Part shown: positions 20,278 to 22,181 of the stretch, piece after piece
How positions within the stretch are numbered: position 1 is the stretch's first letter
How the letters are laid out: each line of letters starts with the position of its first letter
From: a virus
Strand: one strand, 5' to 3'
Length of the DNA: 29,286 bases
Virus record (IMG/VR): IMGVR_UViG_3300035034_001303
Span: 1 to 29,286 of that record
Position numbers and translations under genes: made by a program
Notes under the pieces: generated by a model
Database searches by the model: none
The model's input: the letters and a program-made list of their open reading frames with translations, nothing else
Told to the model about the DNA's origin: nothing

Positions 20278-20448
20278 TTATAAGCGTTGAGTAGACAATA
20301 GACGTGTAATCCAGTTGTCACACAATAAGCGTGTTGCAAAAGGATATTTATAACCTACTGAGCCTCTTTGGTTTAATGGATCAGATGTTCCAGCAGAACC
20401 TAAAGGTTTAACTACAAACTCTGCTTCTTTGCTTCCTAGCTTTACAAC
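20278..20448 (-). CDS. Major capsid protein, exon 3 (56 codons and stop)
   Basis: Residues 259-314 of the spliced protein, beginning VVKLGSKEAEFVVKPLGSAG and ending with TSDPLNQRGSVGYKYPFATR and a short tail. DPLNQRxSVGxK is the C-terminal signature of the N4-gp56-like capsid family. It lies too short and without a start codon for ordinary gene finding. The 5' boundary is set by the intron end ...CAGATTG and by the need to keep frame with exon 2; the join gives QEAYG|VVKLG, which fits capsids of this family. Confidence 0.85.
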   Translation of the reverse strand, partial: VVKLGSKEAEFVVKPLGSAGTSDPLNQRGSVGYKYPFATRLLCDNWITRLLSTQRL

Positions 20449-20678
20449 CAATCTGTTACTTTAATGACCTATTTCTAGGCGGAGTGACCTCTTCGGATCT
20501 CTCTCACTATGTTTCCATAATGTTCAGACTATCGCTTCCCTTTCGGGTCTCTGGACTTAGTCGTTCAGGCTGCACGGTTTCCCTGCTTGCCCCTTGTTGT
20601 CCTCGTCTTTACGTTAGGATGTCCAAGTCAATCACCAAAGATTTTAATACGGCATTAGGCAGCTAAAACCTGTTGTTC
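20449..20678 (-). ncRNA. Group I intron 2 in the major capsid gene (230 nt, ORF-less)
   Basis: Minus-strand elements in order: P1 between exon ATACGGT (20685-20679) and guide GCCGTAT (20653-20647), seven pairs with the required U-G at the splice site; P3 TGGAC/GTCCA; P7 GACTA (20562-20558) with TAGTC (20531-20527); P8 CCC-GAAA-GGG (20547-20538) between the P7 strands; a P9 hairpin TATG-GAAA-CATA (20519-20508); terminal G at 20449. The P3-P8-P7 order and the U-G at the 5' site are defining for group I. Subgroup not determined. Confidence 0.88.
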
Positions 20679-21191
20679 ACCGTATGCTTCTTGTCCTAGA
20701 ATAATACTATTATAGACAGGTACTGCATCATTAGTTGCGTAACCATTAGTAGATAACAACCATCGTACATTGTTTGTCGAACCCCACTCTGCTTCCAACG
20801 CATCCATTGGATTTGGATAGTTAGCTGCGCTTAAGAAATCAGCACAAGCTTCAAGGTCCGGTTGCAATTCTACAGGCATAAAGCCCCAGTAACTACTTCT
20901 CACTGGACTTGTCGCAAATCGGTTTTCACCCTGAATTGGTTTTGTCATCAAGCGCGCATTGCCTAGTCGCAGTGCTCTAACAGCATTTTTGATATCGGAA
21001 GTAGTGATCTCAGTTGGAGTTCCACCGTTGATACCATTACTGCAGGAAATAGATGAAGCAGTTGCAACCATCATATTTCTGATCAATGTATCGATTGTCA
21101 ATCCTAGTTGCAGTGACAATACTCTTGTTGCTTCGTTAAGCACTCTATCTTGTACTGTGAACTGTACTTGATCTGTTAAAACTACAAAATT
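20679..21191 (-). CDS. Major capsid protein, exon 2 (171 codons)
   Basis: Residues 88-258 of the spliced protein: NFVVLTDQVQFTVQDRVLNE, then LGLTIDTLIRNMMVA and GFMPVELQPDLEACADF with ILGQEAYG at the end. These are the central motifs of N4-gp56-type major capsid proteins. The frame has no bacterial start codon of its own except a TTG in the intron. Both ends agree with group I splice rules (G before it, T at its end) and its length of 513 nt is a multiple of three. Confidence 0.9.
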
Positions 21192-21920
21192 CAATATGTT
21201 ACGACAACTTGCGTTGCGGGAACCTTGCTTCGAAGATTCCTCTACCCCTTTCGTAAGTAGATCAGACTATCACTTCCACCTCTCGATGGCTCTTGGGTTT
21301 AGTCGTTGCGGCTGCTCCTACAGCATTGAGCTCACGGCCTATTAGCCAGTGTCTCTCCCTGCGTAGTAGTTCTTCAGGATCTACACCTTTTTGTCTGGAA
21401 TAAGGATTTTCCCATCCGTCAAAAAGATCTATAATGTTTTTCATTTGCCTACACTTAACCTTTGAATAAGGTAAAAGCTTTTTACAAACTTGGTAGATAT
21501 GTTCTTTTTTATGAACTGTCCACCTAAACATTGGTTGATTTGTTGGTCTATCCTTTCGAACGCCTTCATCTCTCAATATACCAACGCCTAATGTATTGAA
21601 TATAAATTCTAAAGGTTCTTTCTGAACCATTCCTATTCGTATAACAGCATAATACACAGGATTTTTACGATTAGTCTGTCGTAAAGTTTCTTTTGTATCT
21701 GCTTTTAATACGCAATAAGATCCTTCTCCATCCATTAGACCTGCTATATAAGCTAGATCAAGCGCTTGCCTCTGGTTTCCATGCATAAATATCTCTCTAA
21801 TTTAACAAAGTTTCCGTAAGATATTATATTAAAAGAGAATTCATGTTTAGGGTTTCCATGTAATTACCATGAGTTTTACAACGGCATTTAGGCTGCGAGC
21901 ATGTAGATCTCTTCTTGTTT
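21192..21920 (-). ncRNA. Group I intron 1 in the major capsid gene (729 nt) carrying a LAGLIDADG ORF
   Basis: The exon ends ...TACGGT and the guide GCCGT lies about 32-36 nt into the intron, giving P1 with U-G at the splice site. P7 is GACTA (21304-21300) with TAGTC (21269-21265); a P9-like hairpin TCTAC/GTAGA follows at 21261-21241; the intron ends CATATTG. The first 50 nt resemble those of intron 2 (an AACAA start, GC-GCC-TAA, TGCCGT, TAAAA), so the two are relatives. P3-P6 were not fully resolved because they are read as part of the endonuclease gene. Confidence 0.87.
21262..21786 (-). CDS. LAGLIDADG homing endonuclease encoded in intron 1
   Basis: A 174-aa protein with one LAGLIDADG motif, LAYIAGLMDGEGS (11-23), where G20 E21 supply the usual metal-binding acidic residue; such single-motif enzymes act as homodimers. 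The remainder (FRWTVHKKEHIYQVCKKLLP, CRQMKNIIDLFDGWENPYSR) fits the fold. It should cut intronless capsid alleles at the insertion site and so spread intron 1. Its last 14 codons (TTKPKSHREVEVIV) cover both P7 strands and P8 of the ribozyme, and its TGA directly follows P7. GAGAGA lies upstream of the ATG. Confidence 0.88.
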   Translation of the reverse strand: MHGNQRQALDLAYIAGLMDGEGSYCVLKADTKETLRQTNRKNPVYYAVIRIGMVQKEPLEFIFNTLGVGILRDEGVRKDRPTNQPMFRWTVHKKEHIYQVCKKLLPYSKVKCRQMKNIIDLFDGWENPYSRQKGVDPEELLRRERHWLIGRELNAVGAAATTKPKSHREVEVIV

Positions 21921-22181
21921 ACCGTACCATTTCACTTGTGTACTGAAGTCAGTAACACTTAATGCATCGCCTGGAGGAGTTGTTCCGTCCTGAATAGGCA
22001 CTGTAGCAGCAGTTAATGTGCTGTAGCGTCTGAAGATCATTTGATCGCCAGAGTTCAAAGGAATTGTTCGCTTCTGTGCAAACATATCGTAAATGTAATA
22101 AGGTCTTGCAAGTGTCAGTAAGAGACGGTCAAAGTATGTCCGTACTTCTGGTGGTACTTGCGCGGTTGTGGTAATTGGCAT
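21921..22181 (-). CDS. Major capsid protein, exon 1 (87 codons)
   Basis: Residues 1-87 of a 314-aa capsid protein, starting MPITTTAQVPPEVRTYFDRL and ending STQVKWYG. Read without splicing it would continue ten codons into the intron (KQEEIYMLAA) and stop. Cutting after GGT (21921-21923) and joining to exon 2 gives KWYG|NFVVLTDQVQ, matching the 'YGxFvxLTDxvq' motif of N4-gp56-type capsids. The scaffold gene directly upstream and decoration-like genes downstream support the role. GGATAG precedes the ATG. Confidence 0.9.

Follow-up and report, generated by a model that had tools for sequence, protein, structure and literature searches.

The window, the whole 29,286-nt stretch of IMG/VR virus record IMGVR_UViG_3300035034_001303 that was analyzed, carries on its minus strand a major capsid gene in three exons separated by two predicted group I introns (Table 1). 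When the strand was read and cut, excision of 21920-21192 and 20678-20449 (minus strand) left a 314-codon capsid frame followed by a stop codon, with both 5' cuts placed after TACGGT and both 3' cuts after ATTG. An earlier note on this DNA had proposed three fragments with these cuts and a 314-residue frame assembled from 87, 171 and 56 codons, and its coordinates and arithmetic hold. The joined 314-residue protein was assigned to the N4-gp56 family by profile search (TIGR04387, E 2.9e-60, 204 bits, above the curated cut-off of 60) and also matched PF25209 in the Pfam profile search (E 1.7e-7) and PHROG 1357 'major head protein' (E 1.2e-41), while the three capsid pieces taken singly gave no Pfam match. 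Within this family its closest cultured relatives, such as Bacillus phage Page, are only 24-31% identical.

Table 1. Features of the interrupted capsid gene, in the order of transcription.
Feature	Position	Strand	Description	Basis or remark
Major capsid gene exon 1	21921..22181	-	87 codons, 261 nt	Ungapped against intact relatives L001-L027
Group I intron 1	21192..21920	-	729 nt, after codon 87, phase 0	Exact joint; compensatory changes in P1-P9
Exon 1 frame into intron 1	21888..21920	-	KQEEIYMLAA and stop; CTC GCA GCC TAA at 21899-21888	Proposed ssrA-like degron
Intron 1 internal guide sequence	21881..21885	-	GCCGT	Pairs with exon ACGGU, U.G at splice site
LAGLIDADG homing-endonuclease ORF in intron 1	21262..21786	-	174 aa, single motif GLMDGEG	I-MsoI-like
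Intron 1 P7 with P3' and P8	21265..21306	-	ACGACTA ... GATAGTC	Compensatory changes in P3 and P8
Major capsid gene exon 2	20679..21191	-	171 codons, 513 nt	Aligned to intact relatives
Group I intron 2	20449..20678	-	230 nt, after codon 258, phase 0, no ORF	Joints and covariation
Exon 2 frame into intron 2	20655..20678	-	EQQVLAA and stop; TTA GCT GCC TAA	Proposed ssrA-like degron
Intron 2 internal guide sequence	20647..20653	-	GCCGTAT	Pairs with exon AUACGGU
Intron 2 P7 with P3' and P8	20527..20564	-	ACGACTA ... GATAGTC	
Major capsid gene exon 3	20278..20448	-	56 codons and stop, 171 nt	

Relatives of the capsid were found at 37 loci in IMG/VR, and the joined protein aligns with most of them without a gap, from end to end in one piece. 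Approximately 29 IMG/VR relatives are uncut, nearly all of these 87-93% identical, and since they align in one piece over 311-314 residues both capsid joins are exact; together with the TIGR04387 score this bears out the earlier proposal that the joins suit an N4-gp56 capsid. Structure prediction of an intact capsid relative by AlphaFold, with an input of 13 close homologues only, gave a pLDDT of 30 and a model unusable for the HK97 fold. The PF13252 profile had no matches in the window's own record and likewise none in the controls, and is hence uninformative. That the gene might be a pseudogene or a misassembly whose inserts are never spliced is a reading to which we give almost no credence, as the exons are approximately 90% identical across relatives, the same two introns occupy the same two sites in an independent contig (L035/L036, of which L036 is truncated at its end) and their folds covary.

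Both introns have a P1 helix with U.G at the 5' splice site and a terminal G at the 3' end (ATTG), as group I introns do. When intron 2 was aligned with its ORF-less relatives (25 introns in all), 94.9% of the P1/P3-P9 cells were paired, and compensatory change was seen in 38 of 50 pairs across P1, P3-P8 and two P9-region helices. Sliding the partners by 1-3 columns as a control reduced pairing to 40-46%, and the P7 strands GACUA/UAGUC were invariant in all 25 introns. Intron 1 was set beside five relatives from the same site with the ORF excised; here 31 of 59 predicted pairs had compensatory change, including 7 of 7 in P3. The earlier note had suggested an Infernal search as a check. This fails at the Rfam gathering score, where neither intron had a group I match, although the structure is judged real from the covariation: RF00028 gave 20.3 bits on intron 2, below the gathering score of 50, and no match on intron 1 even below threshold. 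The general Rfam group I model overlooks many members, and covariation is a stronger test of group I identity than the RF00028 gathering score. At that score RF00028 overlooks the whole phage intron family and therefore annotation pipelines will too. The Twort, T4 and SPO1 phage introns belong to the same ribozyme class as the window introns, and the Twort terL intron is 92% identical to part of intron 2 over 36-38 nt.

With the U.G pair in P1, the covarying core and the exact joints, the claim that two group I introns split the capsid gene stands, and we take as confirmed, at the level of the DNA, that this is an N4-gp56-type major capsid gene with two such predicted introns. From the exact joints and the conserved ribozyme fold we infer that RNA splicing would join the three exons into the 314-residue capsid protein.

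Related introns proved to be widespread in capsid genes. They were collected by a pattern scan for the P7/P8 core followed by blastx of the flanks, by which 122 and then 78 anchors were confirmed, an anchor being confirmed when its flanking exons were contiguous in an uninterrupted relative. The interrupted genes were almost all major capsid genes, of the N4-gp56, P22-coat (PHROG 283) and another head-protein type (PHROG 9953). Other relatives of the window capsid have related introns after codons 91-92, 103-104, 230 and about 290, and across the N4-gp56 superfamily there were 91 introns at 39 positions of the 314-residue protein, with several genes carrying two or more. The earlier note was thus correct in seeing two introns in one capsid gene, but to call this unusual was too strong. 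A capsid intron with proven splicing, that of LittleE, had already been published (Pope et al. 2013, PMC3706429). In GenBank entry MW202674.1 (16569-18084, L245) exon 1 of a P22 coat gene continues to STYQDAYFLLAA and a stop, and this coat gene is annotated as two CDS because of an unrecognized group I intron. A few related introns were found in portal-like and ribonucleotide-reductase genes, gene classes that were read by eye from the sequence. Two family introns (L375 and L441, subject L278:10377-12348) lie in an apparent ribonucleotide-reductase gene, where the frame stops at the splice site with no AA.

What the earlier note overlooked, and what we judge to be the most interesting part of the locus, is that the exon frame runs on into each intron and ends in -LAA and a stop. 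Unspliced, the window reads WYG followed by KQEEIYMLAA at the first site and AYG followed by EQQVLAA at the second, so the frame remains open for 7-10 codons. Six further introns, the first others to be seen in the family, ended in NEELQLAA, EQEALAA, AEYLLAA, IDLDLLAA, IDLDLLAA and IDLDRLAA.

The tails were then surveyed with the exon frame set by homology, blind to the tail, and tails of at least 3 residues were scored for an [AVTS]A end. Near-duplicates, judged by shared 7-mers in the first 110 nt of each intron, were removed, and a P1 of at least 4 bp was demanded. A script assigned the splice sites, some of which, weak ones with a short exon match, may be wrong. In the first set (83 introns) the [AVTS]A end was present in 41 of 70 exon-frame tails and in 3 of 127 tails of the other two frames. 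Once the hypothesis had been fixed, a second set of 58 introns was fetched with other patterns and scored in the same way; it gave 28 of 47 against 1 of 83. For both sets combined (141 non-redundant exon-confirmed introns) AA, VA, TA or SA ended 69 of 117 exon-frame tails against 4 of 210 in the other frames (p 1e-33, uncorrected for shared ancestry). As the introns share ancestry, the p-values of the survey overstate independence; the second set and the intron families of unrelated sequence lessen this problem without eliminating it. When the tails were grouped by insertion position (below 60, 60-119, 120-169 and at least 170) the proportions were 1/5, 19/46, 10/14 and 20/26 (p 0.009, post hoc); on this post hoc grouping tails would be commoner at late insertion sites, that is, where the fragment would be longer.

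About 40% of the surveyed tails of at least 3 residues have no [AVTS]A end, about one sixth of the surveyed introns end the exon frame no more than two codons past the splice site, and at the window's own site 87 a strict AA or VA occurs only in a minority of the relatives' tails. Some of the other endings recur. Across introns of P22-like coat genes (L048, L137, L039, L103, L165) and of another capsid family (L045, L050, L071, L153, L171), the recurrent tails were NSSG[LY][VI]H (NSSGLVH, NSSGLIH, NSSGYVH), AKPT[LIF]H (AKPTLH, AKPTIH, AKPTFH) and VGVTLH. These LVH- and TLH-type tails could be another degron or reflect a constraint on the guide sequence. A further set of mutually similar tails in the frame named for the P3/P4 motif SLIDLE ends in YGVS, VVAFS, EVAIS, EVAIG or VVASS (L077, L109, L110, L135, L175, L299); LEAYGVS and [EV]VA[FI]S ends recur among capsid introns and, like the LVH and TLH types, are left unexplained by the degron idea.

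Where the -LAA type of ending does occur, its conservation follows the reading frame. In the common architecture, where SLIDLE is read through P3/P4, this frame ended in AA, VA or TA in 30 of 38 introns with an exon frame leading into it, against 3 of 37 with an exon frame that misses it (p 2e-10). The spacing between 5' site and core, taken modulo 3, offsets the intron phase (phases 0, 1 and 2 in 27, 2 and 9 cases) such that the exon frame always meets the SLIDLE frame. Among 41 tails, spelled in 38 ways, the terminal alanine codon was GCG in 18, GCT in 9, GCC in 7 and GCA in 7, which at 1.87 of 2 bits leaves the third position near random, and the antepenultimate leucine was encoded by five different codons. 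The location of the tail also differs, being the P1 loop (between the 5' site and the guide sequence) in the window and the P5 loop or P6 in others. Because the ending is frame-dependent, phase-compensated, free at the third position and found in different loops, selection would have acted on the tail as protein and not as an RNA element. The same frame dependence, free third positions and variety of loops make it quite unlikely that GCNGCN-stop is an element of the ribozyme RNA (in the P1, P5 or P6 loop) with LAA incidental to it. In the class of introns with the stop 3 nt before P7 one alanine is nevertheless partly structural, since the last alanine codon overlaps the conserved P6 3' strand (GCNTGAACGAC), and in introns that encode a whole tag base pairing is possible between exon CCAU and the GUGG within the LVA codons. 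The introns, their joints and fold, and the tails are plain in the DNA, and this comparison of relatives shows conservation of the predicted -LAA end at codon and frame level.

We also considered that the tail might be selected merely as an early, well-placed stop which keeps ribosomes off the ribozyme core, the residues being irrelevant. Phage group I introns often have an in-frame stop close by, that of T4 td lying at the splice site, and the portal-like and ribonucleotide-reductase introns of the present family stop at once. We regard this explanation as unlikely, as it predicts neither Ala-Ala or Leu-Ala-Ala with free third positions nor the whole-tag mimics or frames that stay open for 18-30 codons. 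Other phages are known to make truncated or extended forms of the capsid protein, and the short product could be functional in its own right, for instance as an alternative capsid form that needs -LAA; one intact P22-like coat protein does end in CRVAA. This is very improbable for tails at about 39 unrelated positions, for which reason the fragments share no domain, and N4-gp56 proteins of the window type end in TQRL, not AA.

The endings resemble the tag that is added to unfinished proteins in bacteria by tmRNA. The ssrA tags commonly end in LAA, with LVA a working variant (PMC9382460). The likeness to the intron tails lies in the C-terminal LAA or LVA, and in some introns it extends to the whole tag. 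Introns that interrupt a P22-like coat gene 27 codons short of its end gave the tails VANDEKFALVA, VANDSSFALVA and ECANDQSFALVA; the unspliced genes read RQYTI followed by NVANDEKFALVA, NVANDSSFALVA or NECANDQSFALVA and a stop, where the spliced gene reads RQYTINNDSIP. With ARAGORN a tmRNA tag ANDERFALAA and stop was identified in a Burkholderiales genome which holds a related capsid intron (L167, L227). This tag and ANDEKFALVA are identical at 8 of 10 residues. The P22-like coat protein interrupted in this way has relatives in phages that infect Xanthomonas, Pseudomonas, Rhodoferax and Vibrio. The ssrA tag is added by tmRNA to the products of broken messages, whereas the intron tail is encoded in line with the gene and would be used, if at all, on unspliced ones.

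Published introns of unrelated sequence were read in the same manner, and those in structural genes agree. The exon frame ends with SVATAAA in the LittleE capsid intron, with SDDLAAAAA in the BAKA tail gene intron and with LEMAA in the JCL1032 tape measure intron, each followed by a stop, while an AA, VA, TA or SA tail was absent from the T4 td, nrdB and nrdD, phage K endolysin, SPO1 polymerase and Twort terL introns. In the passages of Pope et al. 2013 (PMC3706429) that were consulted, splicing of the LittleE capsid and BAKA tail group I introns is demonstrated by RT-PCR and the tail is not mentioned. As described there, these introns resemble those of the window in lying in virion structural genes, and that of LittleE carries a homing-endonuclease ORF; they differ in belonging to another intron sequence family and another host, with one intron per gene. 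In the literature searched, which included few subscription journals, no earlier report of in-frame intron-encoded ssrA-like tails was found. While ssrA tags, group I introns and their occurrence in capsid genes are known, the in-frame ssrA-like tail appears to be a new feature.

A mechanism can be proposed as follows. Bacterial ribosomes follow RNA polymerase and group I splicing first requires the complete intron transcript; as a consequence of the former, some ribosomes would reach the intron before splicing. Such a ribosome would come to a stop after anything from a few to about thirty codons, releasing a capsid fragment that ends in -LAA, which ClpXP or a similar protease may then remove before it aggregates or poisons the assembling shell. 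For unspliced RNA the tail would thus be the counterpart of what tmRNA is for broken RNA. Degradation of the fragment, its recognition by a protease and any benefit are what we infer. Taken as a whole, an N4-gp56 gene with two self-splicing introns, each bearing a fail-safe -LAA degron for unspliced fragments, is the best explanation of the locus and one that we hold with good confidence. We think it fairly likely that phage capsid and tail gene introns commonly encode an in-frame copy of the host trans-translation tag that serves quality control by giving each product of unspliced RNA a degradation signal from the outset, which as part of the same proposal would make introns tolerable in dominant-negative structural genes. 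If true, a degron carried by the intron would account in a simple way for the tolerance of introns in heavily translated, assembly-sensitive capsid genes, where translation and transcription are coupled and incomplete shell subunits could poison capsids, and would explain their accumulation there, at 39 positions in one superfamily. For annotation, when P3/P7 motifs follow closely on a capsid ORF that terminates prematurely in -LAA and a stop, the ORF probably represents an unspliced exon.

The ORF of intron 1 matched I-MsoI (3fd2; phmmer, 2.6e-10) and PHROG 5046 (3e-14), and PF00961 at 0.0011, which is below the cut-off. This predicted LAGLIDADG endonuclease would presumably drive homing of intron 1. 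As in the I-MsoI/I-CreI family a single-motif endonuclease is encoded within a group I intron, but the window ORF extends across its own intron's P7/P8 core. It spans P6, P7, P3' and P8, and its TGA stop lies immediately 3' of GATAGTC; the same layout through the intron core was seen in L035. In another intron (L034:2200-2998) an ORF-sized insert lies in the P6 region with its coding frame apparently on the opposite strand.
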